A DNA stretch of 64,000 bases from Thermoplasmata archaeon (GTDB lineage Archaea; Thermoplasmatota; Thermoplasmata; Lutacidiplasmatales; UBA184): assembly GCA_027306505.1 (NCBI GenBank), contig DAHUZP010000021.1, forward strand, positions 1-64,000, written 5' to 3'. The translations under genes and the position numbers were made by a program. Positions 13,571-60,011 of the stretch are shown piece after piece. Positions within the stretch are counted from its first letter, which is position 1; every line of letters begins with the position of its first letter. The notes under the pieces were generated by a model, which saw nothing but the letters and a program-made list of their open reading frames with translations, was not told the origin of the DNA and ran no database searches.

Positions 13571-13658
13571 GCTCCTATGAGCGGGTCGGGCGACCTTTAC
13601 CCTTCCGAGGCAGGTAACGAGACCTGGACCGACCAACGCCCTCCTCCTCCCGCCCCTC

Positions 13659-18150: not shown

Positions 18151-18185
18151 GGACCTCCCTCCTCGACCCTCTGCCGTGGCCCCGG

Positions 18186-19340: not shown

Positions 19341-19467
19341 GGGAGCGGCCCTCCTCCTTGGACGGGGAGCTCAGCGTCCGCACCGGCCTCGCGCTCCTCT
19401 CGAGCGGAGGACCGTGGGAGCTCTCTTGGGCCCGGTCCGCCCGGTAGCCTTCCCGCTCGCACGTGGT

Positions 19468-25762: not shown

Positions 25763-25779
25763 GCAGGAGGAAGAGGGAT

Positions 25780-28700
25780 ATGGCGAGCTCCACGGGTGGA
25801 CCTTCGGGGGCCCGACGGTTCCGTCGGTCCCGTTCGGCTCGAGTGCCCTACGCCTTCGCCGCGCTGGTCGTCGGCTTCGCGTTGCTGCTGGTGGTCGCCT
25901 CCTTGCTCACCTCGGAGGTCGCCCTCACCGGGGGACTGCAAGGGCAGGAGCCCGTGCTGGTCGACCAGGCGATGCAGCAGGCGGCCTCGATGCTCGAGGA
26001 CAACGCGAGCAACGCGCTCGTGGGGGTGCTCGCCCACATGCTCGCCGGGACGGACCCCGCCCTCGGTGACCTCAACGCGTCGGTGGCCTCCGGGGTCCAG
26101 AGCTACGTGGCCTCCTCCTTCCGCTCCTCCCCCACCCCTTCCCCTCGGTGTCCCCTCGGGAGGCCCTTCGGGGATGTGACCGTCTGCGTCCTCTCCTACG
26201 CGGTCGACGTGACCTACCCTGGCTGGCAGACGACCGGCCTCCTGCCGCAGGTCGCTTCCGTCTCCCCATCGACGGTGAGCCACTGGCCGGCGGCGCCCCC
26301 GAACGAGCTGGATCCCTCCCGGCTCGCCGTCCCGGGAGGAGGCAACTCGACGCCGTTCCCGGCCGTCGTCGGGAACTTCACGCTCGTGGCGGTCGACCCT
26401 TCGGGGGTCACGACGCAGGGGACCTTCCCGTTCCTGCGGACGGAGACGACGCCCCTGGGGCTCCTGGTCTCCGCCTCCGACCTCTTCACGACGGACCTCT
26501 CCGGGCCCAACGGGGGCTTCGCTCGGCTCGCCCAGTACATCCTGACGACGCTGGCGCAGCTGCGGGCCCTCCTCGGGTACGGCAGCGGAGGCTACCCAGG
26601 ACCGGACTCCGGGGCGACGACGGGGGTCCGGGAGATCCTCACCAACGCGGACGTGGCCGACGCGGGCGCGCTCGCGGTCGCTCTGGAGACGCTCTACTCA
26701 TTCCACGCGACGGACCCGAACGTCGTGCCCTCCCTCTTCGGTAACACCCTCCCTCCGAGCTTCTCCGCGCTGCTCACCCAGGCCCTCGACGGCTACGTCG
26801 ACGGCGCGGCCCTCCTCCTCTTCCTGGAGAGCGCACCCCCCTCCGACTGGTCGAACGAGCTCGTCGCGCTCGGGGAGAGCCTCGCCCAGTCCATCTCCTC
26901 CTTCTCCGACCGGTTCACCTTCGACCTGCTCTACACCTTCTGGGGCCCCACCACCGTCGACCCCACCCTACGGGAACCCGTCGCCGACTGGAACTTCGTC
27001 CACTCCCTCTCCCAGCAGTGGGCGCTCAGCGAGCTCCAGACCTACATGGACGACTACCGGACCTGGATGGGCTCGCAGCTCCAGGGGCTCCCCAGCTTCA
27101 CCGGGCGGTCGAGCTTGCCCGTCCTTCAGGCGCAGGCGGACCAGGCGGCGACGCTCTTCGGGCCGGGCTACCTCCTGTGCTACGACGCGCTGGGGAACCC
27201 GGTCCCCGTCCCGGACACCTACACGCTCTTCCCCGGCGGGAGCTACTCCGCGACCACCCTCGCGGTGCCGGACCTCCTCTCCCTGGTCCTGGGCGACCCG
27301 AACGCGGCCTCCCCGTACCCGGGGGCCCCGTTCTCGGTGAGCACGGACGTGCAGGTCACGGGCTCCGCCCCCTACGTGAGCACCCTCGACTTCACCCTCA
27401 CGGACTCCTCGCTGCTCGGGGAGTACGCCTCCAGCTCCCCCACCCCGTCGATGGACACGATGACCTCGCTCCTCACCGACGTCTCCGAGAGCATGGACAC
27501 GCCAGCCGGGTCCGCCCTGAGCTCCCCGGGCTACGTGCCCTATGTCGCCACCTGGATGGATGGGCAGCTCCCTTCGAGCGTCACGACCACCACGGCCGGG
27601 GTCGCGGACCCCACCTCGGCCCAGCAGCTGGGACCGGGCGGGTCCTCCTCGACCTACCTCGGCGCCGGGGTCGACGCCCTGTACTCCGGCCCGTTCGCCT
27701 CCTCGCTCTCGACCTTCCAGAGCGATGCCGCGACGCAGAGCGGGAACTGGTTCGTCGCGGGGGCGGAGTACCCCTCGGGGGTGGTGGGGACCGGGCCGAC
27801 CGTGGGGACGCCCAACTCGCTCCTGGACATCGCCCGCCTCGCGGTGCGCCTCTGGGCGATGATGGACTACAATCTGTACTGGGGAGGGACCCGGGGCATC
27901 TCGAGCGGCTACAGCTTCGGCCCCGTCGCCTACCAGGCGCCCAACAACGAGTTGATCTCCGTTCCCCCGAAGAGCACGAACGGATTCCCCGACTTCTCCC
28001 AGAACCTCATGGTCTCGCTCTTCGATTACGTCTACTCGTGGGTCCAGCAGAACTCGGCCACCGGCAACCCGCTCCAGGACTGCCAGTGGGACTCCGCCTG
28101 CCTCACGAACTACGCGGGGCTGGGGCCCACCGCCTGTCCCAGCCCCTGGGGGCCCAACAGCGGGTACGCGAACGCGATCGCCGCGTACTTCTCGAACCCC
28201 CAGGGGCTCTGGAGCGCGCTATTGCCCTCCGCGCTCAAGGTCACCTCCGCGTCGGTCCAGCAGGTGGGTCCCCTCGCCCAGCTCCCGCTCCTCACCGCCT
28301 ACACGGACACCGGGAAGGGCCTCGCGATGTGGGGGCCCAAGTTCCAGGCCTGGGTCGAGAGCAACCTGGGGGGTCCCCGGGTCCTCCCGGACACCTTGAG
28401 CCTCGCCCAGAGCTGGGAGCCCGACCTCTACCAGAGCTCGGAGTCCTGGACCGCACGCAACGTCGACGAGCACGCGATCGTCGACCAGCCCTACCTGCAG
28501 GCGGGCCTGCCCTCCCAGTTCTGGCAGGGCAACCGCTCGCAAGCGCTCTCCTCCGGCTCGATCTACGACACGGGTCCTCCCGAGGTCTCCCTCGCGCTCT
28601 CCTCGGTGGTGGCGCTGAGGAGCCAGGCGACCGAGACGGTCCAACTGGTCGACCCCCAGGACCTCTCCTCGAACATGGGGACCTCCCCGTTCCAGACGAC

Positions 28701-30270
28701 GTGGGACGTCCGGTACTCCGCGACGGTGTCGGTGGTCCTCACCGATCCGACCTCGCCCATCCTTCCCGGTCCCTCCGGGCCGGAACCGACGAGGCTCGCC
28801 TTCACGGTCCCCCTCTACGCGGAGTTCCCGGTGACCGTGTTCACGCCCTGGCCGCTCGAGACCGGCGCCCTGGGGCTGCCGTCCGACCCGGTCCTCACCT
28901 ACACGCGAGGGCTCACCGGCATCGAGGGCTCCGACGTGAGGACCGCCTCCGCCCCGGACTATCTTCCCGGCACCTACATCTCCGGACCGCTCGTGGACCT
29001 GCTCTCCCGCGTGGGGACGGTCTCCCACACGGCGATGCAGGAGACGGCGGTCGACGCGTCGCTGCTGGGGAACCTGCCGGGGCAGGGGGCGCAGGGGGGG
29101 CCCCAACTCTCGAGCGCCCTCGCGGAGAGCGTCGACGGCTCCGCGCAGGCCTTCCTGGGGATCGCCCAGCAAGGGAACTCCGCCGCCGCCCGGGCGGACA
29201 TGAACACCCTCTCCACCGCCCTCTCCAGGATCGGCCTCCCCACGGGGCTGCTCTACCTCAACAACTACGCGTTCCTCGGCGACAACGTGACCTTGACGCT
29301 GCAGGGGAACTACGCCGCGACCTGGACGCAGGGATCGGCGACCGCGAGCGTGCTCGACGCTCAGATCGCCTTCTCGTCGAGCTCGCTCTCGCTGGTCCAC
29401 GTGGGCTACGACAACACCTACGGACCGTTCAGCTTCTCGATCGTCCACTCCCCCCTCCCCGGTTCGAGCCTGGGGGTCGGGGAGTACCTCGCGGCGGGCT
29501 GGACGCAATGGGGAGTGCCGAGCGTCCTCACCCTGTCCTCCCCTGTCGGGACGGGGCCCCTCCCCACCCCCACGAGCCCCGCTACCCCCCTGGGCTCCCT
29601 CTACGTACCGGCGATGGGCAGCACGCTCACCACGGCGGAGCTCTATGAGCTGGGGCAGCCCTCGCTGTCCTCGAGCGCGTCTGCCGCCTACCAGAGCTCC
29701 TCTGCCGCCTGGCTCACCGGGGTCGGCCCCGGCCATCCGCCCACCTTCGACACGCTGGTCTCCGCCGAGCAGTACGCGCTCGCGGACTACTTCGACGCTG
29801 TGCGCGCGAACGGGCTCTCCGGGAGCTTCTCCTCCTTCGACCTCGGGGTGAGCGCGGCGGAGGGCGACCAATGGTTCTCCTCCTCCCTCTCCTACCGGCC
29901 CAACGGGGCCCCGACCGCGGCCTCCCTCGAGACCTTCCTGGGATGGGCGGTCCAGGAGAGCCGTCCGCTCGGCTACGCGCTGGGGGACCCCACGCCGGAC
30001 GCGGCGGTCCTCTCCGAGATGCCCCGCTCGCTCCTCGGCACGACCTGGTGGAACGAGAGCGTGGGGGCCTGCCAAGGCTCCCTCGCGACCTGTCCGGGGG
30101 TGGGCGACGTCTACCTCAACACCCCTGGGGGCTACACCGCCGCGAACTTCGCCGCGATCCAGTGCGACCTGGGCGGGCTGGGTGGCGGGGCCTCCGACCA
30201 GCCCGCGGTCCTCTTCGGCGGTAGCGGCACCTCGGGGACCGACCCCTACGTCGCGGAGCTGAGCTACTGA
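25780..30270 (+). CDS. giant membrane-anchored pilus-locus protein, copy 2
   Basis: A 1496-residue paralogue of 5480-10168. The N-terminus is basic (RRFRRSRSARVPYAF) before a membrane span at about 22-45, then an all-exterior chain. Conserved blocks occur throughout, e.g. DRFTFDLLYTFWGPTTVDP and, much later, SNMGTS and TWW-containing segments. ATG 25780 has AGGAGG 9 nt upstream. However, a GTG at 25759 overlaps the previous stop (GTGA) and would begin MSRRK, like MSRRD in copy A, so 25759 is a strong alternative. It is co-transcribed with the anchored surface protein. No catalytic motif was recognised. Confidence 0.75.
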   Translation: MASSTGGPSGARRFRRSRSARVPYAFAALVVGFALLLVVASLLTSEVALTGGLQGQEPVLVDQAMQQAASMLEDNASNALVGVLAHMLAGTDPALGDLNASVASGVQSYVASSFRSSPTPSPRCPLGRPFGDVTVCVLSYAVDVTYPGWQTTGLLPQVASVSPSTVSHWPAAPPNELDPSRLAVPGGGNSTPFPAVVGNFTLVAVDPSGVTTQGTFPFLRTETTPLGLLVSASDLFTTDLSGPNGGFARLAQYILTTLAQLRALLGYGSGGYPGPDSGATTGVREILTNADVADAGALAVALETLYSFHATDPNVVPSLFGNTLPPSFSALLTQALDGYVDGAALLLFLESAPPSDWSNELVALGESLAQSISSFSDRFTFDLLYTFWGPTTVDPTLREPVADWNFVHSLSQQWALSELQTYMDDYRTWMGSQLQGLPSFTGRSSLPVLQAQADQAATLFGPGYLLCYDALGNPVPVPDTYTLFPGGSYSATTLAVPDLLSLVLGDPNAASPYPGAPFSVSTDVQVTGSAPYVSTLDFTLTDSSLLGEYASSSPTPSMDTMTSLLTDVSESMDTPAGSALSSPGYVPYVATWMDGQLPSSVTTTTAGVADPTSAQQLGPGGSSSTYLGAGVDALYSGPFASSLSTFQSDAATQSGNWFVAGAEYPSGVVGTGPTVGTPNSLLDIARLAVRLWAMMDYNLYWGGTRGISSGYSFGPVAYQAPNNELISVPPKSTNGFPDFSQNLMVSLFDYVYSWVQQNSATGNPLQDCQWDSACLTNYAGLGPTACPSPWGPNSGYANAIAAYFSNPQGLWSALLPSALKVTSASVQQVGPLAQLPLLTAYTDTGKGLAMWGPKFQAWVESNLGGPRVLPDTLSLAQSWEPDLYQSSESWTARNVDEHAIVDQPYLQAGLPSQFWQGNRSQALSSGSIYDTGPPEVSLALSSVVALRSQATETVQLVDPQDLSSNMGTSPFQTTWDVRYSATVSVVLTDPTSPILPGPSGPEPTRLAFTVPLYAEFPVTVFTPWPLETGALGLPSDPVLTYTRGLTGIEGSDVRTASAPDYLPGTYISGPLVDLLSRVGTVSHTAMQETAVDASLLGNLPGQGAQGGPQLSSALAESVDGSAQAFLGIAQQGNSAAARADMNTLSTALSRIGLPTGLLYLNNYAFLGDNVTLTLQGNYAATWTQGSATASVLDAQIAFSSSSLSLVHVGYDNTYGPFSFSIVHSPLPGSSLGVGEYLAAGWTQWGVPSVLTLSSPVGTGPLPTPTSPATPLGSLYVPAMGSTLTTAELYELGQPSLSSSASAAYQSSSAAWLTGVGPGHPPTFDTLVSAEQYALADYFDAVRANGLSGSFSSFDLGVSAAEGDQWFSSSLSYRPNGAPTAASLETFLGWAVQESRPLGYALGDPTPDAAVLSEMPRSLLGTTWWNESVGACQGSLATCPGVGDVYLNTPGGYTAANFAAIQCDLGGLGGGASDQPAVLFGGSGTSGTDPYVAELSY

Positions 30271-30361: not shown

Positions 30362-33300
30362 TCAGTACGGGGGAGCCGTCTGTGTGCCGGGAAGCTCCGG
30401 TGGAGGGCCCGCGGGGGCGGGGCTGCTCTCCCCCGCGCCCGACATGTCGGGTGGAGAGGAGGGGCCTTCGGCCTCCGATGGGGGCCCGGAGGTCTTGCTG
30501 TCCTCTCCGCCGCTGCGAGAGCGACCGCGACCCGCGTGGCGTCGCCGGGTCTTGGAACGGAAGCGCACGTAGAAGAGGCTCCCCGCGACCGCGACGACCA
30601 CGAGCAGGGCCACGCCGAGGACCAGGGCCCCCGAGTTCCCTTGCAGCCAGCTGGGGAGCGGGCTCGACGAGCTCGGAGAGCCGCCGGTGCCCCCGCCGCC
30701 GCCTCCGCCACCCCCGCCGCCCCCACCTCCACCGCCGGAGCTGGTCTTGTTGACGGTGACCGACACGGCGGCCGCCGAGGCCCCGGCGCCGTTCGCGTCG
30801 GAGACGGAGACCGAGATCACGTAGGTGCCGGCGGCGCTGTAGGTGTGGGTGAGGGTCCCCGTGGGGTCCGCCGAGGTGGCGGTGGAGGTGTCACCGTAGG
30901 AGAGGACCACCGCGAAGGGTGCGAGGCCGCCCGATACGCTCCAGGAGACGGCGACGGTCAAGGGGACCGTGCCCGAACTGGGGCTAGCGGAGCTCGTGAG
31001 CGAGAGGGAGGAGGCGACGCTGACCGAACCGGAGATGTTGAGGACGGCCCCGAGGGCGTCATGGACGCTCACGGTGACGGGGTAGGTCCCCGGTCGCGTG
31101 AAGGTGAAGGCGACCGGGTCCCCCGAGAGGGAGCCTACCGGCGAGACGAACGTGGGGGTGGAGTAGGGGGCGACCCCGCCGCTCAGTCCCTGCAGGGAGA
31201 AGGTGAAGTTGGCGGGGGCGTCCAACGAGCCCGCGTTGGCCATGAGCGACCCGGAGAGCGCCGGAGGGAGCTCGACCAGGTCCGCGGTGCCGTTCATGTC
31301 CCCCTCCCCGATCCACAGGTCGCCGTTCGCGGCGAGCGTCGTGGGGACGGACTGCCAGAGGAGCCCGATCCCGAGGGTGAGGTCCACCTGCGAGACCGCG
31401 TTCACCCCCTGGAACACGACCGGGGTGGAGAGCACCGTCTGCTCGAACCCCAAGCCCCCCAGGAGGTAGGTGGGCCCCATCGCGGAGAGGGTCGTGATCG
31501 CGTTCACGTTGTAGGGGACGGGCAGCGAGGCGGTGAGGTCGAAGGCCCCCTGGCCTCCCAGCGTCCAGTTCACCAGGCCCGCGCCTCCTCCCACCCAGAA
31601 GGTGGTCCCGTTCCAGGTCGAGGACTGAGGCACGCCGACGAAGGAGGCGAAGTCGGGCGTCACGTTGGTGAGCGCGGGGGTCCCGCCGGGAACGTAGGAG
31701 AAGAAGTCCCCTACCCCGGAGAACTCGGGCTGCTGCGCCCCGCCGAGGAGCGCGGCCCCGGCGCTGTCCACCGCGATGGTCGTGACGGAGGAGACCGTGA
31801 GGAGGCTCGCGGAGAGGTTGGTCCAGCTCGAGGTGGAGGGGGCGTAGGAGTAGAGCCCGCCCCCGTAGCTCGCGCTCTGGTTCACCTGGATCGTTCCGCC
31901 GACCAGGAGGTCGCCGGAGAAGGTGGCGAGGGAAGAGATGGCGAGATCGGGGGCGAGCCCGCTCGTGATGTTCTGGATCGCGCCGGTCGCTCGATCGAGC
32001 AAGAGCACGCTCGCACCGTCCGAGAGGTAGACCTTCCCGCCCGAGCTCGCCGCGAGGGAGAGGTCGCCGAGGCCCGGAGGGAGCGAGGGCGTGAGGTCCG
32101 CGACGGTGCCGTTGGTGAGGTCGAGCGCGAGGAGGCTCCCCGCGCTCCCGTTCGTCCCCGCGACGTAGAGGTGCCCCTGCGAGAGCGCGAGCGCGCTCGC
32201 CGCGACGAAGCCCGTGGGGAAGGTCGCGGAGGTCCGCACGAACCCACCGGCGGAGGTCCAGGTGCCGAGCTCGGCCATGCCCAGGGCGTCCGAGCCCCCG
32301 GCGAGGAGGGTCGAGCCGGGCTCCCAGGTGAGGGCCAGGGGGCTGAACCCCGTGGGCCACGGGGAGCTCGCGAAGGGGGTCACGGCCCCCGTGGACCCGA
32401 GCAGCGAGACCGCGCCCTTGGGCGAGGCGACGGTCCAGCCGAAGAGCGTGGAGGGGTCGGGGCATGCGACGGTGGGGAGCCCGAGGAGCGGAGCGAGGGC
32501 GGTCGTCACGTTGTCGAAGGGCCCTCCGCTCAGGTTGAGGATGCCCGTGTAGCCCTGGGCGGACTCGACCAGGACGTAGTGGCTCGCCGCGGCGAGCGGG
32601 GTGAGCGGCATGCCGAAGCTCGCGGGGACGAGCGAGGTGAGGTTGGTGAACGACCAGACCCCGAGGGAGTAGTTGAGCAGCCCCGCCGTGCCGTTGACGC
32701 TGCTGCCGGTGACGAGGATCCCCCACGGGTCCGAGATCGCCCCGACGAGGGCGCCGAACCCCGTCGGCACTCCCGTGTAGGGCGTGAACCCGACCGACCC
32801 GTTGTAGGTCGCGACCTCGGGCAGTGCTACCCCGGTGGAGTAGTTGCCCCCCACGAGAGCGACCTGACCACCGAGGGTCCCGCCCCCGCCCAGGACGCCC
32901 AAGGTCTGCGGGGTGAACCCGAGGGCCGGCTGATAGAGGCCCGAGGTGAGGTTCTGCTCCATGAGCTCGGGGGCGCCGCTGCCCTGTCCCCAGAGATAGA
33001 CGGTGGGGTAGGTCCCGAGCACGACTGACCCGGTCTGCAGCGCGCCGATGTCGTCGGTGGGCGCCACCGCGCTGAAGTTGCCGGTGCGGTCCACGAGCGA
33101 AGCGGGGGGCCCTAGGGCGAGCGTCCCCAGCTTCGGCCCGGTGAAGGTGTCCGCGCCGAGCACGTCCACCGATCCGCCCGGCAGGTTCAGCAACTGGTCC
33201 ACCGCGCTCCACGAACCGCCAGGGACCTGGGGCAGGAGGCTCGCGAAGGAGTGGGGGGGGGAGGGCGTGGAGTTGGTCGCGAGCGTCACGCTCGCGCCCG

Positions 33301-33559
33301 TAGAGAGCCCCCGGGCCGTCCCGGGCAAGGTCCCCGCCGCTCGAGCGGCCCCAGGGGCCGCACCCGCGGGGGGGCGCCCGTGGAGAGGGCTTGCGCTCCC
33401 ACCGAGGGGATAGGCGAGCAGCATCATGAGGAGAAGGAGTCCCACCGCGATCATCGGCCCGGGTCCACCCCGGGCACCATCCCCTCGCTCGCTCCTGCTC
33501 TTCCCCATGCGCTTCACAGGTCCCCTACGTTCCTCCGATCGAACCGGAGAAGATTCCAT
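30362..33559 (-). CDS. PKD/propeller surface protein with poly-Gly linker and anchor
   Basis: A protein of up to 1065 residues. A signal peptide (MIAVGLLLLMMLLAYPLGG) is followed by about 650 residues of kelch/propeller-like repeats. Two PKD-like domains follow (GTYPVTVSVHDALGAV; SAAGTYVISVSVSDANGAG), then a run of about 15 glycines, a membrane span (LVLGVALLVVVAVAGSLFYV) and a basic cytosolic tail. PKD domains usually mediate protein or glycan contacts outside the cell. The start is uncertain: ATG 33559 has no ribosome site, and ATG 33508, 17 codons later, still precedes the signal peptide. It is followed on the same strand by the convergent giant gene and preceded by the hydrolase-like gene. 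Confidence 0.75.
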   Translation of the reverse strand: MESSPVRSEERRGPVKRMGKSRSERGDGARGGPGPMIAVGLLLLMMLLAYPLGGSASPLHGRPPAGAAPGAARAAGTLPGTARGLSTGASVTLATNSTPSPPHSFASLLPQVPGGSWSAVDQLLNLPGGSVDVLGADTFTGPKLGTLALGPPASLVDRTGNFSAVAPTDDIGALQTGSVVLGTYPTVYLWGQGSGAPELMEQNLTSGLYQPALGFTPQTLGVLGGGGTLGGQVALVGGNYSTGVALPEVATYNGSVGFTPYTGVPTGFGALVGAISDPWGILVTGSSVNGTAGLLNYSLGVWSFTNLTSLVPASFGMPLTPLAAASHYVLVESAQGYTGILNLSGGPFDNVTTALAPLLGLPTVACPDPSTLFGWTVASPKGAVSLLGSTGAVTPFASSPWPTGFSPLALTWEPGSTLLAGGSDALGMAELGTWTSAGGFVRTSATFPTGFVAASALALSQGHLYVAGTNGSAGSLLALDLTNGTVADLTPSLPPGLGDLSLAASSGGKVYLSDGASVLLLDRATGAIQNITSGLAPDLAISSLATFSGDLLVGGTIQVNQSASYGGGLYSYAPSTSSWTNLSASLLTVSSVTTIAVDSAGAALLGGAQQPEFSGVGDFFSYVPGGTPALTNVTPDFASFVGVPQSSTWNGTTFWVGGGAGLVNWTLGGQGAFDLTASLPVPYNVNAITTLSAMGPTYLLGGLGFEQTVLSTPVVFQGVNAVSQVDLTLGIGLLWQSVPTTLAANGDLWIGEGDMNGTADLVELPPALSGSLMANAGSLDAPANFTFSLQGLSGGVAPYSTPTFVSPVGSLSGDPVAFTFTRPGTYPVTVSVHDALGAVLNISGSVSVASSLSLTSSASPSSGTVPLTVAVSWSVSGGLAPFAVVLSYGDTSTATSADPTGTLTHTYSAAGTYVISVSVSDANGAGASAAAVSVTVNKTSSGGGGGGGGGGGGGGGGTGGSPSSSSPLPSWLQGNSGALVLGVALLVVVAVAGSLFYVRFRSKTRRRHAGRGRSRSGGEDSKTSGPPSEAEGPSSPPDMSGAGESSPAPAGPPPELPGTQTAPPY

Positions 33560-33723: not shown

Positions 33724-36700
33724 CTACGACCTCGAGCTCGAAGAGGTCCCCGCTGCCCGCCCGCTGCGGGGCATGGAGGAGCGCTCGGGGAGCTCTTCCG
33801 CTGACCCCAGGCCGTATCGGCGGGAGAAGAGGCCCACCCCGAGCACCAGGAGGAGGAGCTCCATGACGAACATCGGGGAGGCGATGGGGGTGAGGACGAG
33901 GGGCATCGATGCTCCGGTCGCGACGAACCCGCTCGCGATCGTCCCCAGCCCGACCGGCCCGACCAGCCCGAGGGTGGGGGCGAGGGAAGGCGCCACCGAG
34001 AAGGCCCCGCTCGAGCCCACGGAGGGCGCGGAGGGGGAGGAGGGGGCGCTCGAGGGGTTGGCCGAGGACGTCGAGGCCACCACCACGAAGGGCAGCTTGC
34101 TCTTCATGTGGACCAGGACCCAGGGACCCATGCCGCTCCCCATGCTCCAGCCCACCGCGCGCTGGGAGCCGGTGTGGGCGTCCACGAGGGGACCGCCGCT
34201 GCCGGTGGAGACCACCATCGCGACGTGCTGGACGGTGCCCGTCCCTTCGTAGTAGCCGACGACATCGCCCGGGGCGAGCTGGCTCGCACCGGTCACCTTG
34301 GTCGCGAAGCCCCAGCCGAGGAGGTAGTTCACGAGGTCCTGCGCGTTCACGTCACCCGTGATCGCGCCGCCGTAGCGGTAGGGGTCGCGAGAGAAGGAGA
34401 CCCCTCCCGCCGCGAGCGAGCTCGAGACGAAGTGCGCGCAGTCCACGCCATGGGACATGAGACAGGTGCCCTGGAGCGAGTGCCCCGAGCCCAGGTGCGC
34501 GGGGTAGCCTGGCCCCGCGGGGCACAGGCTGTCCCAGAAGAAGTAGCCGTCCGAGACCGCTTCGTCCCAGTACTGGTTCGCGTAGCCCACCGCCTTGCTG
34601 GCGCAGTAGTTCCCGGAGGTGCAGCCGCTTCCGCCGCCGCCGCCCCCCCCGCCCCCGCTGCCGCTTCCGGCGAGGAAAGAGGCGATGGTGGGCCAGAGCC
34701 CGCTCGGCATCGCGGCAGGCCCGTCGTCCAGGGCCCAGTAGGCGAGGAAGTGGACGCCGTCGCTCTGGGTCTTCTGGACCTCGGACTGGAGGTCGCTGAG
34801 CTCGCCGGAGGCTCCCGCACAGTACTCCGGGTCCAGCGCGAGCCCCAGGTGGGAGGCCGAGATGGAGCGGAGGGAGGTGGAGGCGGCGGAGCTGAACTGG
34901 CTCAACGAGCAGGTGTAGTCCATCAGCACCCAGACGTCGACCGAGCTGCGGGACATGTCCCCCAGGTTCCAGAAGCCGGGGCTCCAGAGGGCGAAGTCGC
35001 CCTGGAGCTTCATGCCGTGGGAGTGGAGGGCGGAAGCGAACTGGCCCATGAACTGGGCATAGGCCCCTCCGTCCGCGCCGTTCACCGATCCGCCGCCGCA
35101 GGAGGCGGAGGTGTCCGGCTCGAAGTCCACGTTGTAGCCCGCGTAGCCGTCCGACCTGGCCGTGGTGACCGCCTGGTCGATGAACGGTTGCCAGAGGCCC
35201 TGGGTCGCGAGGAAGTAGTTGAGCGAGGGGACGTTGCACGACGTCACCATGGGATACATGTGGCTCCCATGCTGCTTCGCCCAGGAGGTGAGGTCGTTCG
35301 AGGTCCCCGCGTAGCCCCGCGAGGTGAAGGAACCGCCGCTGGAGAGGTAGTAGGACTCCTCCGAGATGGAGGGGATGTCCTTCGTGACCCCTGAGTACTC
35401 CTTGCCGAAGGCGCTGGAGGAGCCGGACCAGGCGCAGAACTGGCAGACCCAGGGCATGAAGGTGTTCGCGGAGCTTCCGCCGCCCCCGCCGCCTCCTCCA
35501 CCGCCACCGCCGCCGGAGGAGCCGCCGGTGCAGACCTTCCCCGAGGTGTAGGGGATGCAGAGGTACCAGTTCGCGCTGATCACGTTCGGGTTCGAGATCC
35601 CGTCCTTGCTCGCGATGAGCGTGTAGAGGTTCGAGTTCCCGTAGGCGCGGGACGCGATCGCGCTCAGTGAGTCGCCCGAGCGGATCTGGTACCAGTCGCC
35701 CTGCTTGGGAGTGGAGGAGAGCGGGGTGCACTGCTTCGGACCGTAGAGGTTGCAGTTGCCGCTGCCGCCGCCGCCCCCGCTCCCGCCGCTCCCGCTCGAG
35801 GAGCAGGAGTTGCCGTTCGTGTGCGGGATGCACAGGTAGTAGCCGGACTGGATCACGTTCGGGTTGGAGATGTGGTCCACCCTCGCGATGAGGGTGTAGA
35901 GGCTCGACTTCCCGTAGGCCCGGGAGGCGATCCCGCTGAGGGAGTCACCGGACCGGATGTGGTACCAGTTGCCCTGGGAGGGGTTCGTGGTGAGCGGGTG
36001 GCAGACGTTCGGCCCGTAGAGGTTGCAGTTGCCGCTGCCGCCCCCTCCTCCTCCGCCACCGCCTCCCCCGCTGCTGGAGCAGACGTCATTCGGGCAGACG
36101 GTGCTCCAGGGGAGGTTCGCCTGGTTCTGGTTGTAGCCGGAGCAGGTGACCCAGCCGGTGCCGCCGAAGCCGTTCGGGGCCCAGCGGCAGTAGGCGCCAG
36201 AGAGGTAGCTGCCCCAGAAGTTGTAGCTGTTCGCGTGGTAGTAGTCGATCGCCCACTGGAAGGAGCAGGTGGGGTTGAAGTAGACCGGACCCCAGTTGGA
36301 GCCCCCGCCGTAGCTGCTGCAGGTCGAAGGGTTGTACCCGCCGATGGGGAACGGGTTCCCCTGGGGCGGGTATTGACCGCCGGTCCCCTCCTGGAGGATC
36401 CCCTCCGCGTAGTAGACCGGTTCGATGGCCGCCGGATTGAAGCTGCTCTCCTGGTAGGCCATGGAGACGAAGGTGATCGTGAGGCTGCCGGTGAAGCCGG
36501 CGTGAAGGGCGCAGTCGACGACGTCCTGGAGGGAGAGGGTCATAGGATGCCCGTACTCGTTCGCGTTGGGACAGGAGGCGGAGGAAGTCGCGGCGGGAGC
36601 GACCGCGGCAGGGGCCGCCCGGGGCAGGGCGACCTGACCCACCGGCTGGAGCGTCGCGCCCCCCAGGCCCGAGACCCCCAGTCCGATGGGGGTCCCCGGG

Positions 36701-36855
36701 AGCACCATGAGCGCGACGACCCCGACGGCGAGCGAGGCGACCAGCCAGGAGGTGACCCGCCCGAGGTCCCGCCGGGAGGCCGAGGGGGAGGACCCCGACC
36801 AGGGTTCGACGCGAGTGGCGTGGGGTTCGCCTTGCTCTCCGGCAGGAACACGCAT
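33724..36855 (-). CDS. multi-domain cell-wall-hydrolase-like protein
   Basis: A 1043-residue exported protein: N-terminal span (35-58); lysozyme/transglycosylase-like domain (about 97-260) with AYQESSFNPAA (Glu 136); Gly linker; two LysM repeats (298-343 and 389-433, both with RSGDSLS-x-IASRAYG); Gly linker; a GH18-like domain (about 465-730) with YNVDFEPD (574-581, Glu 579 as possible acid); Gly linker; an amidase_6/NlpC-P60-like domain (about 745-925) with DCAHFVSSSL (Cys 806), QHVAMVVS (His 877) and DAHT (His 894); C-terminal span near 1000 and a basic tail. LysM binds GlcNAc polymers and the catalytic folds cut glycan or peptide bonds of peptidoglycan or chitin. ATG 36855 is chosen by the TATA box at 36894 and the signal segment. 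Confidence 0.82.
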   Translation of the reverse strand: MRVPAGEQGEPHATRVEPWSGSSPSASRRDLGRVTSWLVASLAVGVVALMVLPGTPIGLGVSGLGGATLQPVGQVALPRAAPAAVAPAATSSASCPNANEYGHPMTLSLQDVVDCALHAGFTGSLTITFVSMAYQESSFNPAAIEPVYYAEGILQEGTGGQYPPQGNPFPIGGYNPSTCSSYGGGSNWGPVYFNPTCSFQWAIDYYHANSYNFWGSYLSGAYCRWAPNGFGGTGWVTCSGYNQNQANLPWSTVCPNDVCSSSGGGGGGGGGGGSGNCNLYGPNVCHPLTTNPSQGNWYHIRSGDSLSGIASRAYGKSSLYTLIARVDHISNPNVIQSGYYLCIPHTNGNSCSSSGSGGSGGGGGSGNCNLYGPKQCTPLSSTPKQGDWYQIRSGDSLSAIASRAYGNSNLYTLIASKDGISNPNVISANWYLCIPYTSGKVCTGGSSGGGGGGGGGGGGGSSANTFMPWVCQFCAWSGSSSAFGKEYSGVTKDIPSISEESYYLSSGGSFTSRGYAGTSNDLTSWAKQHGSHMYPMVTSCNVPSLNYFLATQGLWQPFIDQAVTTARSDGYAGYNVDFEPDTSASCGGGSVNGADGGAYAQFMGQFASALHSHGMKLQGDFALWSPGFWNLGDMSRSSVDVWVLMDYTCSLSQFSSAASTSLRSISASHLGLALDPEYCAGASGELSDLQSEVQKTQSDGVHFLAYWALDDGPAAMPSGLWPTIASFLAGSGSGGGGGGGGGSGCTSGNYCASKAVGYANQYWDEAVSDGYFFWDSLCPAGPGYPAHLGSGHSLQGTCLMSHGVDCAHFVSSSLAAGGVSFSRDPYRYGGAITGDVNAQDLVNYLLGWGFATKVTGASQLAPGDVVGYYEGTGTVQHVAMVVSTGSGGPLVDAHTGSQRAVGWSMGSGMGPWVLVHMKSKLPFVVVASTSSANPSSAPSSPSAPSVGSSGAFSVAPSLAPTLGLVGPVGLGTIASGFVATGASMPLVLTPIASPMFVMELLLLVLGVGLFSRRYGLGSAEELPERSSMPRSGRAAGTSSSSRS

Positions 36856-37215: not shown

Positions 37216-37240
37216 AGACCCCCCCGTGGGGGGCTTTGGC

Positions 37241-37735
37241 ATGCGGAACCACCGCCTGGGGAGACGGGGGGTCGCGGGGTTCTTTGAGGAGATCCCGGCG
37301 GCCTCCGTGGCGATCATCTCGCTCCTCCTGTTCTTCAGTGGGATGCTGGTCGCGATCACGAACTACTCCGACCGCCAGCAGTCGAGCCAGTTCGCCCAGG
37401 AGGCCCAGACCTTCCTCGAAGGCCTGCTCGGCTACGCGAACCTGACCTATCTGGGCCAGTACGGTGTGTTCGACGTCTACTCGATGACGGCGCTCACGCT
37501 CAACGACCTCACCTACGATTTCCACCCCTCCTTCCAGTACAGCATCACCATCACCGACACCTCGCTCTACCCCGTCCACTACGACAAGACGCTCGCCACC
37601 GGCAACCTCCCCTCCGGCCCGAGCTCCCTCCAGAACGGCTACGTCAGCGACTCCACCTCGGTCGACCTGTGGGTCTTCAACTTCCCTGACACCGAGTACC
37701 ACGCGGCCACGCTCACGGTGGTGATCTGGTCGTGA
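37241..37735 (+). CDS. pilin-like protein 1, first gene of locus B
   Basis: A 164-residue protein. The leader MRNHRLGRRG is followed by VAGFFEEIPAASVAIISLLL, the pilin helix with the same FxEE motif as copy A. The exterior shares FLEGLLGYANLTYLGQYGVF and FHPSFQY with copy A. ATG 37241 is preferred over a GTG at 37226 because the TATA spacing fits a leaderless mRNA and the leader length matches copy A. Confidence 0.82.
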   Translation: MRNHRLGRRGVAGFFEEIPAASVAIISLLLFFSGMLVAITNYSDRQQSSQFAQEAQTFLEGLLGYANLTYLGQYGVFDVYSMTALTLNDLTYDFHPSFQYSITITDTSLYPVHYDKTLATGNLPSGPSSLQNGYVSDSTSVDLWVFNFPDTEYHAATLTVVIWS

Positions 37736-38424
37736 GGTCTAGGAACGGGGCCCGGGGGGCGCTCCACGCCCCGAGAGCGGCCCGCCGCCTCCGGGGCCAA
37801 CGCGCCGAGGTCGCGGTCTTCGACATCGTCCTCTTCGTTCCGCTCCTGCTGGTGGGACTGCTCTTCCTCAACTCGATCGTGACCCTCCCCACGTCGACCG
37901 TCGCGGAGAACGTCAACTCCTCGAGGTACGCGGCGGAGGGGATGGCGACGACCCTCCAGGCGACCGTGCCCCACGCGAGGACCTACCTGTGGGAGCCCCC
38001 GTGGTGGGGATGCCCGTTCGGCTGCTGGGTCCGGGCGAACGTGGAGGACTGGACCGTCTACGACCTGGTCCTCTGGGACGTCTACTTGGTGAGCTGCGGG
38101 GTCTCGACCCAGGCCCAGCTCGACAACCGCCCCTGGATGGGCTACTACATCGCGCTCACGGCGGCCGAGGTCGCCCAGGGTGCGCTCGCGCCGACCCCGC
38201 CGACGACCTACGCCAACTACTACTTCGAGTTCAACGGCACCGCGAACGGGTTCGCCGGACCTGGGTGCTACGGTCCGGTGACGCCGGTGCGCGATTACGA
38301 CTCGAACCTAGCTTCTTATCCTGCCTCACCTAGCACGCAGCTGTACACCTGGTCCACGGTCCTCCAGCCCGATCAACCGGGCGAGGGGCCGGTCATGGTC
38401 CAGTTGGGGTTGTGGGGGCCGTAG
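37732..38424 (+). CDS. pilin-like protein 2, locus B
   Basis: A 230-residue protein that starts with GTG in a GTGA overlap with the pilin-like 1 stop. The basic leader ends in RLRGQRAEVAVF, followed by DIVLFVPLLLVGLLFLN, the hydrophobic helix. The exterior has Cys and Trp clusters (PPWWGCPFGCW) absent from copy A and ends in LWGP as copy A does. It is probably a minor pilin whose exposed part has diverged between the two machines. Confidence 0.78.
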   Translation: MRSRNGARGALHAPRAARRLRGQRAEVAVFDIVLFVPLLLVGLLFLNSIVTLPTSTVAENVNSSRYAAEGMATTLQATVPHARTYLWEPPWWGCPFGCWVRANVEDWTVYDLVLWDVYLVSCGVSTQAQLDNRPWMGYYIALTAAEVAQGALAPTPPTTYANYYFEFNGTANGFAGPGCYGPVTPVRDYDSNLASYPASPSTQLYTWSTVLQPDQPGEGPVMVQLGLWGP

Positions 38425-38447
38425 ACGTGAGAGGAGCAGAGGTTCCG

Positions 38448-40334
38448 ATGAGATCGTGGGGTCCTGTGAAGAAGGTCGGCGCGCGGCGAACGGCGGGCAT
38501 CGCAGGGTTGGGGGGGCTCGTGCTCCTTGGAGCCTTGGTGCTCCTCTCCTCCTTCGCTCCGATGGTCCTGGGTCTGACCTCCCCCACGAGCAGCGCGTCC
38601 CTCCTCTCTCAGGCGACCTCCCCCACCCCTCGGTCTGCGTGCTCGAACTGCACGTGGACCAACTACACCACCAACCCGGCCGACGTGGTGCTGGTCGCCT
38701 CCTCCCCCAACGGCGCCTACGTCGCGGCTGCGACGAACGACCGACGGGTGTTCGTCTTCTCGACGAACCCCTCGCTCCCCGCCCCCCTGGGCACCTACAC
38801 GCTGCCCACCGGCGCGGGCGCGACGACCCTCGCCCTCTCCGACACCTCGGCGACGGGCTCCCCGCTCGTCCTGGTGGGCTGGGCGGGCCCGGGCGCGGGC
38901 TCGACCGGCCTCTCGGCCTGGAACATCACCACCTCGGGGGTCTTCACAGGCTCCCCGGCCTGGAGCCTCAACGCGGGGAGCTTCGTGCTCCCCCACAGCT
39001 CTCTCGCCTGGATCCGTCAGGCCGTGATCTCGGACGACGGCAGCGTGGTCATGGTGATGACCGGGTTCAGCTTCTCCGGTAGCTCCGGCACCAACATCAG
39101 CTACTTCGCCCACGGCCAGACGAGCTGCGGGACCTCTTCGCCGCTCCAGTACTGCTGGGGGATGAACTTCTCCACCGATCGGCCCGTCTCGCTCTCCATG
39201 AGCGTCGACGGCACGAGGGCCGTGGCCGCCGTCCAGGGCAGCCTGCCGGAGCTCCTCATCTTCGACGCCTTCGGTCAGACCGGCATCTGGACCGCTCCGG
39301 CGGGCGGGGAGATGTACACCGGGGCGATCTCCGGCAACGGGCTCATGATGTACATGTCCACCTCGGCGGACTTCTACATCGGCAACGCGAACACGGGGAA
39401 CACGAACAAGACCATCCCCACGAGCGCGCTCAACACCCCGACGCAGATCTCGCCCTCCTTCGACGGGACGACCTTCCTGGTCAGCAGCCAGATCCCCTCG
39501 CAGGCGAGCTACTACCGCTGGTCGACCGGGACGAACTGGAGCTCCCTATGGACGCTCTCGTTCCCGGCCGCGACCCCGATCGACAACGCTACCCTCTCGC
39601 TCTACGACCCCTCCTACTTCGTGATCAGCTCGGTGTCCACCGCCCAGATGTTCTACTACTACCCCGGGATGCCGGAGAGCACCAGCTCAGCCTATCGCAC
39701 CATCTCCACGGTGGGGCCCCTGCGCGACCTCGCGGTCTCCTCCCACCGCGGGACCCTGGTCATGGGCAGCGGGTACATCACGGGCGGCAAGGACGAGTTC
39801 ACGCTCGTCACGGACGGCGGGATCCCGACGCCCGCGGCGCCCATCGTGGTGATGCAGGCGGTCTCGCCCTCCCCGGGGGACACCTCCGCCTCGCTCCAGA
39901 TCTCCTGGACCAACCCCGGGAACGTCCCGATCACCGGCACGATCGTCGCCTTCGAGCTCACCCCCGGTCAGTCGACCTCCGGGAGCCTCCCCGCGACCAA
40001 GAGCTTCGTCGGGACCGGGTCCTCGCCCCTCACCGTGAGCGGGTTCAGCTTCGGCACCAACTACACGGTCACGATCACGGTGCAGGCCTTCGGGGGCGCT
40101 TCCAGCGCGACCTCGACCCCGGTCGCCCGCTCGACCGACAACGCCCCCGCGGTGGTGGACCCCTTCCTGGGTCCGGAGATCGCGGCGGCGGTGCTCCTGG
40201 TCGTGGGCCTCCTCGCCTTCGTCCTGTTCCGCCGGCGCGGGACCGTGCCCAAGGAGCTCCAGGGCGCGGGCGCTCCGCCCTCCAACTACCCCTCCGGCCC
40301 CACGCCTCCCCAGGGAGGTGGAGCGGGCCGCTGA
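38448..40334 (+). CDS. beta-propeller/FnIII surface protein with C-terminal anchor, locus B
   Basis: A 628-residue protein: signal segment (LGGLVLLGALVLLSSF), propeller-like blades (SSPNGAYVAAATNDRRVFVF, closely matching copy A), a CSNC motif near the mature N-terminus, a fibronectin type III-like domain at about 475-560 (TVSGFSFGTNYTVTITV), then a span (AAAVLLVVGLLAFVLF) and a basic tail. ATG 38448 has GAGGT 5 nt before it and lies 23 nt after pilin-like 2. It is the positional and sequence counterpart of 19468-21414. Likely an exterior scaffold. Confidence 0.8.
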   Translation: MRSWGPVKKVGARRTAGIAGLGGLVLLGALVLLSSFAPMVLGLTSPTSSASLLSQATSPTPRSACSNCTWTNYTTNPADVVLVASSPNGAYVAAATNDRRVFVFSTNPSLPAPLGTYTLPTGAGATTLALSDTSATGSPLVLVGWAGPGAGSTGLSAWNITTSGVFTGSPAWSLNAGSFVLPHSSLAWIRQAVISDDGSVVMVMTGFSFSGSSGTNISYFAHGQTSCGTSSPLQYCWGMNFSTDRPVSLSMSVDGTRAVAAVQGSLPELLIFDAFGQTGIWTAPAGGEMYTGAISGNGLMMYMSTSADFYIGNANTGNTNKTIPTSALNTPTQISPSFDGTTFLVSSQIPSQASYYRWSTGTNWSSLWTLSFPAATPIDNATLSLYDPSYFVISSVSTAQMFYYYPGMPESTSSAYRTISTVGPLRDLAVSSHRGTLVMGSGYITGGKDEFTLVTDGGIPTPAAPIVVMQAVSPSPGDTSASLQISWTNPGNVPITGTIVAFELTPGQSTSGSLPATKSFVGTGSSPLTVSGFSFGTNYTVTITVQAFGGASSATSTPVARSTDNAPAVVDPFLGPEIAAAVLLVVGLLAFVLFRRRGTVPKELQGAGAPPSNYPSGPTPPQGGGAGR

Positions 40335-40385
40335 GCGCCTCGACCAGCCGGATGAGATCGCACCGAAGGAGCCTCCTATAGGACC

Positions 40386-41234
40386 ATGATACCGCCCCGA
40401 GTCGCCGCACAGGTCGCGAACCCCCTGACCAACCTGCCCGAGTACGAGTACGAGCTCAGGACCGAAGGTCGGGCGCTCAACCTTGTCGTCCGGTGCCCGG
40501 CCTGCCAGGGCCCCGAGGGGATCCTGAACCCCCAGTGCCTCGCGGTGGTGCTCCGGATCCTCTCCACCGAGTCCTTCGCCGACCTCGTGACCTTCACCGG
40601 CATCACCCAGCGGCAGTACGGCGGCCAGGCGGTGGAACTGCTGAAGCGCCTGGTCAGCTTCTCGAAGCTCCTGGACCAGCTCTCCGGCCGGCAGCCGCTC
40701 CCCTACAGCGGCGGGGTCGTCTTCCCCGACGGACAGGTGGACGAGGTCATCGCGGACCTGGAGAAGGTCGCCTCGACCCCCGGGGCGCTCCCGGGGCCGC
40801 TCCTCACCGTCGAAGGGAACCCGCAGAACCTGACGCCGCCCGTCGCGGCCGAGCTCGCTCGGAACGCGCGCGCTCAGCGGGCGAACATCCAGCGCCACCT
40901 GCGCCGGCTCGACTGCGCGCACTGCGCCTACAGCCCACGCAACCTCTTCCCGAACCTCAAGAACCTGCTCCTGACCGACCTTCGGGCCTTCGCGCTCGAC
41001 CTGCGGCAGAGGGCCCAGGTGCTGGCCCAGGGTCCCCCGGACGAGGGCTGCAGCCGCTGCCTCGGCTTCACCTTGTCCGACCTCGAGTACCTCGCGGACC
41101 AGCTCGTGGAGCTCGATGGCTTCGTCCGAAGCCGCGGCGCGGGAGAGACCGGCGGTCCCGGGGCGAACCTGGGACGCGGCCCGGCGAACCCCCCGGCCCA
41201 GCCCGCCCACGCCGCCGCGGGGGGGAGCCACTAG
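40386..41234 (+). CDS. seven-cysteine pilus-locus protein, locus B
   Basis: A 282-residue cytosolic protein, the short form of 18186-19340 without the long acidic/Pro-rich middle. The cysteines are at 37, 40, 51 (RCPAC-x10-C), 177, 180 (DCAHC followed by AYSPRNLFPNL) and 222, 225 (GCSRCLGFTLSDLE). QRQYGGQAVELLKRLV matches the helix in copy A. Its TAG stop is immediately followed by the ATPase ATG, so both products should be made in step. I infer a metal-binding partner of the ATPase and do not recognise a named family. Confidence 0.78.
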   Translation: MIPPRVAAQVANPLTNLPEYEYELRTEGRALNLVVRCPACQGPEGILNPQCLAVVLRILSTESFADLVTFTGITQRQYGGQAVELLKRLVSFSKLLDQLSGRQPLPYSGGVVFPDGQVDEVIADLEKVASTPGALPGPLLTVEGNPQNLTPPVAAELARNARAQRANIQRHLRRLDCAHCAYSPRNLFPNLKNLLLTDLRAFALDLRQRAQVLAQGPPDEGCSRCLGFTLSDLEYLADQLVELDGFVRSRGAGETGGPGANLGRGPANPPAQPAHAAAGGSH

Positions 41235-43403
41235 ATGGTCGCTCAGAGCGCGACCACCTCCATCGGCACGTGCACCAACTGCGGCGCTCCGCTCTCCGGC
41301 AAGACCCGGTTCTGCGGCAGCTGCGGCACCCCCATCCCGGTGGGCCGCCCCTCCTCGGGCCGCCCGGGCGCCTCCGCCTCGCCCGCCCCCGCCGCCGCCC
41401 GCAAGAGCATCGACGAGATCGCCCCCATGCCTCCCCCCGCGGTCGCTCCTCCCCCCTCCCCCGCGCCGTCGCTCCCGCGCAGCGCCCCGCCCCCCCGGGC
41501 GGCCCCGCACCCGCGTGACACGATCGCACCGACCCCGCCCCCTCCCGCCGCGGCCTACCGCCCGGCGACCGCGCCCTCGCTCTCGCAACGCTACCGGCGC
41601 CCGATGAGCCCCGAGCTCGGCCCGAGCGCGATCGGCAAGGTGCTCCACTCCATGGACCGCCTGCCCGTGGACGACATGGTCCGCGGCGCGGGGCGTATCC
41701 TAGGACGCGGGATGCTGACGCGGCCTGGGTTCTCCGGCTGCTGGGTCACCCCGGCGGTCCCCGAGAACGGCGAGCTCCTCTTCCAGTACCCGCTCGGCCG
41801 AAGCCGCGTGCTCCTCTACCGGATCCCGAACGAGGTCGACATCCTCTACCACCTGGACCTCGCGGACTACCGGGTGCCGCCCCAGTACGTGCAGCTCATC
41901 GAGTGGACGCGCGAGGAATTGGTCCACTGGTACCCGAAGCAGTTCAAGCTCACGTTCCTGGGACAGACGCGCCAGTACGTCCAGGACCTCTCCGAGCGCC
42001 TGATGCACCGGATCGCGAAGGAGCGCGGGATCTCCCTGGGTCCCACCACCGCCGCCTCCTCGGCGCGCCTCAAGGAGCTCTCCGAGATCCTCGCCCGCCA
42101 TGTGGCGGGGTTGGGCGTCATCGAGCTCCTGCTCGAGGACCCGCACATCCAGGATGTCTACGTGGACGCCCCGGCCTCCGAGAACCGCGTGCACCTGCGG
42201 GTCGCGGGCTTTCCCGATGAGCGCGTGGGCGACAAGGCCCTCACCAACATCATCGTGACCGACGAGGAGACGGAGGCCATCCTCTCCCGGTTCCGGATCG
42301 AGAGCGGGCGGCCGTTCTCGGAAGCGATGCCCGTCCTGGAGACGGACCTCAAGGAGTACAACACCCGTGCGTCCGTGATCGGCCGGCCGCTCTCCCCCGA
42401 CGGGATCGCGATCGCGCTACGGCGGCACGCGACGGACCCGTGGACGCTCCTCAAGTTCCTCTATTTCCGCTCGCTCTCCCCCTTCTCGGCGGGACTGCTC
42501 TCCTTCCTGGTGGACGGACGCAGTTCGATCCTTGTCTCGGGGGCGCGCAGCGCGGGGAAGACCTCGCTCGTCGCGGCGCTCATGCTCGAGTTCCCCAAGA
42601 CCCAACGCATCCTTACCATCGAGGACACGCTCGAGCTGCCGAGCCTCGAGATGCGTCAGCTGGGCTACAAGGTCCAGACCATCTTCGTCCGGAGCGCCCT
42701 GGGCGGGCAGGCCGGGGAGATGACCACCGACGACGCCCTCAAGGTCTCGCTGCGTCTGGGCGAGAGCGCGATCGTGCTCGGGGAGGTGCGTGGCCAGGAG
42801 GCCCGTACCCTCTATGAGGCGATGCGCGCAGGGACGGCCGGCAGCGCGGTGCTGGGGACCATCCACGGCAACAGCGCCCACGCGGTGTACGAGCGGGTCG
42901 TCCACGACCTCGGGATCTCCCCCACCTCCTTCAACGCGACGGACATCGTGGTCATCGCGGGGCTCACGAGCCCTGGCGGCTCGGTGCGCACCCAGCACCG
43001 GCGGCTGCTCCAGCTGAGCGAGCTCGACAAGAACGCCCCGGACCCGGGGACCTTCGAGGACCTGCTCAACTACGACGAGGCGAACGACGCGCTCCTCGAG
43101 TCCCCGCGCGTCGCGCAGGGTTCGCTCCGGATCTCCACCATCGCCGAAGCGTGGGGCATGACCTACCCTGAGGCGATCGAGAACATCCGGGTGCGCGGCG
43201 CCTACAAGGAGCACATCGTGAAGTACGCGGAAGCGACCGGGCGCTTGGACCTATTGACCGCCCCGTGGGTCGGCGCGACGAACGCCGCCTTCTGGGAGAT
43301 CATGGAGCGCTACAAGGACCAGGTCCACGACCACACCCTGTCCTACGACACGGTCCTTCAGGAGTGGAAGGACTGGTTCGCGAAGACCGTGCGTTATGGC
43401 TGA
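41235..43403 (+). CDS. secretion/pilus ATPase with N-terminal zinc ribbon, locus B
   Basis: A 722-residue TadA/FlaI-type ATPase. The zinc ribbon CTNC-x10-CGSC is at 13-30, a Pro-rich linker reaches about 125, and the core follows with Walker A ARSAGKTS (Lys about 442), IEDTLELP, Walker B VLGEVRG (Glu about 517) and His box TIHGNS (His about 544). Long stretches are identical to copy A, e.g. DVYVDAPASENRVHLRV against DLYVDAPASENRVHLRV. The start abuts the previous stop. The last 8 nt overlap the platform gene. Confidence 0.92.
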   Translation: MVAQSATTSIGTCTNCGAPLSGKTRFCGSCGTPIPVGRPSSGRPGASASPAPAAARKSIDEIAPMPPPAVAPPPSPAPSLPRSAPPPRAAPHPRDTIAPTPPPPAAAYRPATAPSLSQRYRRPMSPELGPSAIGKVLHSMDRLPVDDMVRGAGRILGRGMLTRPGFSGCWVTPAVPENGELLFQYPLGRSRVLLYRIPNEVDILYHLDLADYRVPPQYVQLIEWTREELVHWYPKQFKLTFLGQTRQYVQDLSERLMHRIAKERGISLGPTTAASSARLKELSEILARHVAGLGVIELLLEDPHIQDVYVDAPASENRVHLRVAGFPDERVGDKALTNIIVTDEETEAILSRFRIESGRPFSEAMPVLETDLKEYNTRASVIGRPLSPDGIAIALRRHATDPWTLLKFLYFRSLSPFSAGLLSFLVDGRSSILVSGARSAGKTSLVAALMLEFPKTQRILTIEDTLELPSLEMRQLGYKVQTIFVRSALGGQAGEMTTDDALKVSLRLGESAIVLGEVRGQEARTLYEAMRAGTAGSAVLGTIHGNSAHAVYERVVHDLGISPTSFNATDIVVIAGLTSPGGSVRTQHRRLLQLSELDKNAPDPGTFEDLLNYDEANDALLESPRVAQGSLRISTIAEAWGMTYPEAIENIRVRGAYKEHIVKYAEATGRLDLLTAPWVGATNAAFWEIMERYKDQVHDHTLSYDTVLQEWKDWFAKTVRYG

Positions 43404-45510: not shown

Positions 45511-45530
45511 CGATCTGGAGGAAGGGACGC

Positions 45531-56646: not shown

Positions 56647-56693
56647 CCCGACCCCCCTCTTCGCCCTGGGCGACCCTCGCCCCCGTCCCGCCC

Positions 56694-58391: not shown

Positions 58392-58418
58392 GGACGCTCC
58401 TTCGACCTCTCCCAGGAC

Positions 58419-59981: not shown

Positions 59982-60011
59982 CGTTCCTCCTTCCTCCCTG
60001 TACCTTCGCCT

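Follow-up and report, generated by a model that had tools for sequence, protein, structure and literature searches.

A modular hydrolase predicted to act on bacterial cell walls, encoded beside pilus-type loci in a Thermoplasmata archaeon

Introduction

Of 3,706 archaeal genomes, 175 have been reported to encode modular peptidoglycan hydrolases, which are prominent in Thermoplasmatota (Strock et al. 2025, PMC12352652). Aciduliprofundum boonei exports a GH25 muramidase, a wall hydrolase by which bacteria are killed (Metcalf et al. 2014, PMC4241558). Predation, necrotrophy and scavenging have been named as possible roles in a primer (PMC12356512). The general idea of archaeal peptidoglycan hydrolases, also in this phylum, is already published and is not new. 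Here we describe a modular hydrolase gene of a Thermoplasmata archaeon, found at positions 33724 to 36855 of a stretch of 64,000 nucleotides (contig DAHUZP010000021.1, hereafter the window). We read its product as a cell-surface peptidoglycan hydrolase acting on bacterial walls and give this reading a probability of roughly 0.7.

Results

Domain organization of the hydrolase

The modules of the chain are set apart by Gly-rich linkers and are encoded as follows.

33724 to 36855 (-): modular hydrolase gene, ATG at 36855, stop codon included, 1043 amino acids
36700 to 36756 (-): N-terminal hydrophobic segment, residues 34-52, export signal or anchor (Kyte-Doolittle 2.32)
36046 to 36591 (-): lysozyme/SLT-like domain (N-domain), residues 89-270, with Glu136, by profile-profile match
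35824 to 35964 (-): LysM 1, by Pfam
35551 to 35691 (-): LysM 2, by Pfam
34654 to 35481 (-): GH18 domain, residues 459-734, with Asp577 and Glu579, by family profiles and AlphaFold
34132 to 34608 (-): Amidase_6/NlpC-P60-like domain, with Cys806, His877 and His894, by Pfam
33829 to 33885 (-): C-terminal membrane segment, residues 991-1009 (Kyte-Doolittle 2.19)

An earlier note, made from the letters of this DNA, had named four module types (transglycosylase-like, two LysM, GH18-like and amidase_6/NlpC-P60-like) in one exported, probably anchored chain with Gly linkers. Pfam, the family profiles, the profile-profile comparison and the AlphaFold model showed the four types to be correct, and the hydrophobic segments at residues 34-52 and 991-1009 agree with the predicted export and anchoring.

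The two LysM modules (E 2.8e-12, 46.8 bits against a cut-off of 20.9) and the Amidase_6 domain (E 6.4e-12, 46.3 bits against 23.2) were recognized by Pfam, and a match to NLPC_P60 stayed below its own cut-off (20.1 against 23). Cys806 and His877 are each kept in 17 of 17 amidase domains, and the amidase profile found only weak NlpC/P60 matches among PDB sequences (best 0.03). When the full length was scanned, Pfam assigned no family at E up to 1 to residues 89-270 and 459-734, and a search of the whole protein with NCBIfam and Pfam missed GH18 and gave no SLT at the N-domain. Endolysin and tail matches in PHROGs were driven by LysM and were set aside. Long antisense open reading frames are common in the window, whose G+C content is 70%; for the hydrolase frame, a chance origin is excluded by its Pfam matches and its homologues in other genomes.

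The lysozyme/SLT-like N-domain

The N-domain is present in 24 distinct proteins, and alignment revealed that Glu136 and eight Cys are invariant in all of them, with nearly invariant AYQES and GILQ surroundings. The hydrolase's own N-domain scored 12.4 bits against Pfam SLT (PF01464; E 0.12), under the cut-off of 21.3, and by that cut-off it is outside PF01464. When the 24 N-domains were scanned alone, SLT was matched by ten (best 0.0018), Phage_lysozyme2 by nine and SLT_3 by six, families that are all lysozyme-like in name, with one stray match in addition. Homology to the SLT/lysozyme superfamily, with the catalytic Glu and a GLMQ-like motif, was found by profile-profile comparison with seven SLT domains, five from E. 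coli transglycosylases and two archaeal. The N-domain profile reached a score of 40.2 (E 6.9e-6), a value attained by none of 200 column-shuffled profiles (best 19.3), while the reversed profile scored 10.1 and the GH18 and amidase profiles scored 18.4 and 15.7 against the N-domain. Among PDB sequences, no match was obtained with N-domain profiles built from either 5 or 24 rows.

These comparisons indicate that the N-domain is probably a distant relative of the lytic transglycosylase SLT domain, sharing the ES...GLMQ-like motif around Glu and the profile-profile match, and differing in its greater length, its eight invariant Cys and its place under the Pfam cut-off. It may work like SLT, as a hydrolase or as a lytic transglycosylase, two chemistries that the comparison does not distinguish.

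The GH18 module

No match of the hydrolase to Pfam PF00704 was obtained at E up to 1, so that the family cut-off was not reached; the own genome has no PF00704 match at E up to 0.001, and the best E among relatives was 0.084 (L036). Profiles built from the family recovered solved GH18 enzymes: with nine members 4q6t (1.9e-10) and YdhD (6.6e-4), and with 17 members 4q6t (1.9e-17), 5jh8 (4.3e-8) and YdhD (2.1e-6). The AlphaFold model of the domain has a predicted local distance difference test score (pLDDT) of 86.6 and a predicted template modelling score of 0.89. Its top Foldseek matches are the Pseudomonas class V chitinase 4q6t (2.0e-11) and Bacillus SleL 4s3k (2.2e-11), and the first five rows of VIA-align gave Z 25.6-24.5 and a root mean square deviation of 2.3-2.6 over 244-252 aligned residues. 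On the family profiles and the fold matches of the model, we assign the module as a TIM barrel homologous to GH18. The DxE end of the DxxDxDxE motif is present as Asp577 and Glu579, which are kept in 17 and 15, respectively, of the 17 GH18 domains of relatives.

Distribution among relatives

Genera are labelled g1 (congeners of the source genome), g3 and g7. Homologues of the hydrolase were found in 14 of 121 related genomes searched. The N-domain occurs in 10 of 400 genomes of the class sample and in 10 of the 103 family genomes, and the ten of the 103 that encode GH25 muramidases are exactly these genomes, namely four g1, five g3 and one g7 genome. The g7 genome, G019, has 7% contamination, and the N-domain it encodes shares 98-99% identity with those of G001 and G002, so the true count is perhaps nine. 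Outside the family, GH25 was present in 3 of 24 other relatives searched. The GH18 module is more widely spread (27 of 400 class genomes), and 4 of 73 relatives, all of them g1, gave LysM matches at E up to 0.001, exclusively in this type of protein. A contig scan that reaches only close relatives recovered eight loci, all in Thermoplasmata records; three queries found no relatives of the hydrolase in viral contigs, and one query of 646 amino acids lacking the amidase module found none in plasmids or phages. This distribution suggests acquisition and spread inside a single clade.

The exported arsenal and exchange of modules

The source genome encodes at least six such exported proteins, on contigs C60, C11, C5, C41, C73 and C36.

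The modular hydrolase described above
C11: N-domain, amidase and PKD
C5: N-domain and PKD
C41: amidase and PKD
C73 and C36: two proteins with GH25 and PKD

An N-terminal hydrophobic segment is present in all six and a C-terminal one in five of the six. Among the congeners, the chains of L032, L033 and L034 carry three LysM, and L031 has a different N-terminal part. In L031 (8996 to 12346, +) the first 320 residues are an unrelated part standing in place of the SLT-like domain, for which no Pfam family was found at E up to 0.5. The GH18 modules of L031-L034 are 69-76% identical to that of the window; the amidase modules of L032-L034 are only 32-33% identical to the window's and 64-66% identical to that of the own-genome C11 paralogue, while the amidase of L031 is 72% identical to the window's. 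The amidase identities conflict with the GH18 identities, which shows that modules were exchanged between paralogues. Relatives also carry fusions of the N-domain with GH25 (L052) and of Amidase_6 with Glucosaminidase and SH3_3 (L062).

L052 (G020 C8, 3029 to 6691, -) is followed at 327 to 2846 by a homologue (33%) of the PKD protein of the window, so such a neighbour is found next to a different wall hydrolase as well. The N-domain and amidase paralogues L039, L041 and L042 end in GGVFTFGSAVFYG-type repeats, which resemble those of secreted actinobacterial proteins, and not in a membrane segment.

Genomic setting and linkage to pilus loci

The hydrolase gene lies among the following features.

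30362 to 33559 (-): exported PKD protein with a C-terminal membrane segment, downstream of the hydrolase, conserved neighbour
24910 to 30270 (+): convergent giant secreted protein, conserved neighbour, hydrophobic segment near 25852
11824 to 22014 (-): pilus locus A, ATPase at 15805 to 18189
13659 to 15812 (-): protein of locus A, paralogous to the T2SSF protein of locus B
37226 to 45510 (+): pilus locus B, divergent from the hydrolase, pilin-like protein at 37226 to 37735
41235 to 43403 (+): T2SSE ATPase of locus B
43396 to 45510 (+): T2SSF protein of locus B

The two loci are paralogous, with ATPases 66% and membrane proteins 43% identical. TIGR03819 (TadA) is the best-scoring model for the locus A and B ATPases at 130.8 and 126.4 bits, which is below its cut-off of 373. 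Neighbouring genes were in part called from codon-position G+C, a heuristic that missed genes, the one for the pilin-like protein of locus A probably among them.

The order hydrolase, PKD protein, giant protein and locus A is kept in G001, G002 and G003, with the ATPase about 85% identical. No locus B homologue was found beside the hydrolase in the upstream 7.8 kb of G001, 9.3 kb of G002 and 1.8 kb of G003, where the contig ends. Locus B was dropped as the conserved partner, since it is locus A that stays beside the gene in these three congeners. The earlier note had pointed to the divergent pilus-type genes next to the hydrolase; these do begin at 37226, and the linkage to pilus genes it suggested is real, with the conserved partner being locus A in place of the divergent locus B.

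In genus g3, the hydrolase of L035 and L049, which is built of GH18, N-domain and amidase, has as neighbours a PKD protein homologue (32-34%), a homologue of the giant protein (29-31%) and one of the pilin-like 37226 protein (45-46%); in the shorter stretch of L050, PKD and giant protein homologues adjoin the hydrolase. In G005 and G015, as in the window, the hydrolase has a T2SSE ATPase on each side. Counted over 9 and 42 genes of nine genomes, G019 being left out, hydrolases with GH18 and amidase lie less than 25 kb from a T2SSE ATPase in 6 of 9 cases and other arsenal genes in 1 of 42 (Fisher 3e-5), or 2 of 42 at a limit of 30 kb (1e-4), p-values that serve only as a guide, since the 25 kb limit and the gene class were chosen post hoc and the genes are related. 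Genes with Amidase_6 only entered this count from the own genome (G000), the one genome searched with PF12671. The remaining three of the nine have no ATPase on their contig (G003 C115, 133 kb; G020 C80, 13 kb; G024 C259).

Several further observations were made at these loci. Tad/type IV pilus-like loci at 11824 to 22014 (-) and 37226 to 47244 (+) border the hydrolase block on both sides, and each pilus locus includes one protein without a Pfam family (40386 to 41234 and its paralogue, 18189 to 19370). The giant secreted proteins at 24910 to 30270 (+) and 5480 to 10168 (-) are paralogous, share about 32% identity, begin with a hydrophobic segment in the N-terminal part, and are candidates for giant pilin-like or pilus tip proteins; no Pfam family was found in the former at E up to 0.01, and its true start is probably a little upstream of 25852. 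L047 (G002 C48, 3284 to 7900, -) encodes a further GH18-module protein of 1539 amino acids; a pilus membrane protein homologue lies 0.8 kb away from it, and at a distance of 3.9 kb there is a pilus-type ATPase that shares about 55% identity with that of locus A. The region 54488 to 63879 (-) of the window holds Complex I-like genes (N, M, L and I subunits) and a prenyl diphosphate synthase-like gene.

Discussion

Target of the hydrolase

In the mechanism that we propose, the N-terminal signal would export the chain and the C-terminal membrane segment would hold it outside the cell, while the two LysM would grip a glycan containing N-acetylglucosamine. The glycan would then be cut by the lysozyme/SLT-like domain, through Glu136, and by the GH18 domain, through Glu579, and the Amidase_6/NlpC domain (Cys806-His877) would cut the stem peptide or its amide link. 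The hydrolase is one of at least six exported arsenal proteins, and its position close to a Tad-like pilus locus suggests that it may work where cells touch.

The earlier note had left the target as bacterial wall or chitin. GH18 and LysM alone would also fit chitin, and use of the hydrolase to feed on chitin, such as that in fungal walls, would agree with the many chitinases among the GH18 matches and with the ability of LysM to bind chitin (PMC12352652; also a LysM review). Chitin offers no peptide on which the Amidase_6/NlpC domain could act, however, the same chain carries an SLT-like domain, GH25 muramidases co-occur, and in relatives these modules are fused to GH25 or Glucosaminidase. 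We therefore favour bacterial peptidoglycan, because the chain carries Amidase_6/NlpC and SLT-like domains and GH25 muramidases occur alongside it, and regard chitin as a less fitting and improbable target.

Several observations weigh against a hydrolase anchored at the cell surface and acting on bacterial walls. The N-domain stays under every Pfam cut-off and its AlphaFold model from five rows has a pLDDT of 33. A later Asp, in the motif MxYD, is typical of GH18, and the corresponding position here is Thr648. The GH18 Glu is replaced in L035 (Ala) and L050 (Thr), two of 17 relatives, and these two together with L049, all multi-module hydrolases of genus g3, have Phe at the positions of Tyr647 and Trp707, so that catalysis by their GH18 module may be lost or changed, perhaps leaving binding only. 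The C-terminal membrane segment is absent in 16 of 37 complete homologues, including these three multi-module hydrolases of g3, and anchoring is hence not general. L031, the second copy of G003 (on C115), lacks all of the conserved neighbours and shares its contig with no ATPase, and the post hoc limits of the proximity count were given above.

The losses in the GH18 module of relatives, and neighbours that are PKD proteins and pilus loci, would suit a protein that is now mainly an adhesin, its modules binding wall glycan and some no longer catalytic. All of Glu136, Asp577, Glu579, Cys806 and His877 are nevertheless present in this hydrolase, and Glu136, Cys806 and His877 are invariant across the family, so we hold a mainly adhesive role to be about as improbable as the digestion of chitin.

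Less likely still is remodelling of the archaeon's own envelope, such as a pseudomurein-like or other glycan layer, even though such modules act mostly on the own wall in bacteria (PMC12352652). The N-domain and GH25 are missing in 93 of 103 family genomes, which argues against a general envelope function. The own genome has a single Mur_ligase_M hit, and its HITGSKGKGS motif we take to be FolC-like. The host seems to be without a bacterial-type wall of its own; the earlier statement that it lacks peptidoglycan is thus supported, by this one Mur marker in a genome 88% complete, a limit that counts among the points against our reading. That the gene is a bacterial contaminant, as the bacterial renown of all module types and a fragmented assembly of 87 contigs might suggest, is very improbable given full-length relatives with the same neighbours in three separately assembled congeners, all titled Thermoplasmata, the only suspect copy being that of G019.

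A protein directed at bacterial peptidoglycan may serve to attack or eat bacteria, though sequence does not separate attack, feeding and defence. We offer only tentatively, and as doubtful, the analogy of an archaeal contact-dependent killing system in which a Tad-like pilus would bring the archaeon to a bacterium and the three-cutter chain with GH25 would open the wall for predation, the whole being an archaeal counterpart of the myxobacterial Kil system built by swapping wall-hydrolase modules.

Comparison with known systems

The Kil system (PMC12075869) shares with this locus a Tad-like pilus and the role at contact with bacteria proposed here; among known systems it comes closest to the contact hypothesis, purely as an analogy. 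The conserved pilus linkage makes contact-dependent predation by archaea a direct hypothesis.

Among enzymes, the SleL/YaaH spore cortex enzymes (4s3j, 4s3k) have the GH18 fold, SleL being among the best fold matches. The domain order of SleL is LysM-LysM-GH18, the same as in the central part of the hydrolase. The hydrolase is archaeal, adds the SLT-like and amidase modules and the membrane segment, and shows 11-16% identity in the fold alignments; owing to the extra modules it is not a SleL as a whole protein. GH25 proteins of the same family as the A. boonei muramidase accompany the window gene, whose own product has no GH25 domain and carries SLT-like, GH18 and Amidase_6 domains.

Like the hydrolases of Strock et al. 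(PMC12352652), the window protein is archaeal and exported and combines catalytic with wall-binding domains, here Amidase_6 and LysM above their cut-offs. Those tested in that work are haloarchaeal proteins of M23 and PG_binding_1, while the window chain has three catalytic types, LysM, a membrane segment and linkage to pilus loci. The literature searched on archaeal and Thermoplasmatota wall hydrolases, predation and contact-dependent pili contained no such three-catalyst chain, clade-restricted lysozyme-like domain or pilus linkage, and these three features are what is new here. Among the papers found on archaeal type IV pili and contact dependence, no title concerned killing by archaea. The lysozyme-like family was found here in one archaeal family only, in which the arsenal is all-or-none (10 of 103 genomes). 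As few bacterium-attacking enzymes of archaea have been tested so far, the locus provides a defined candidate.

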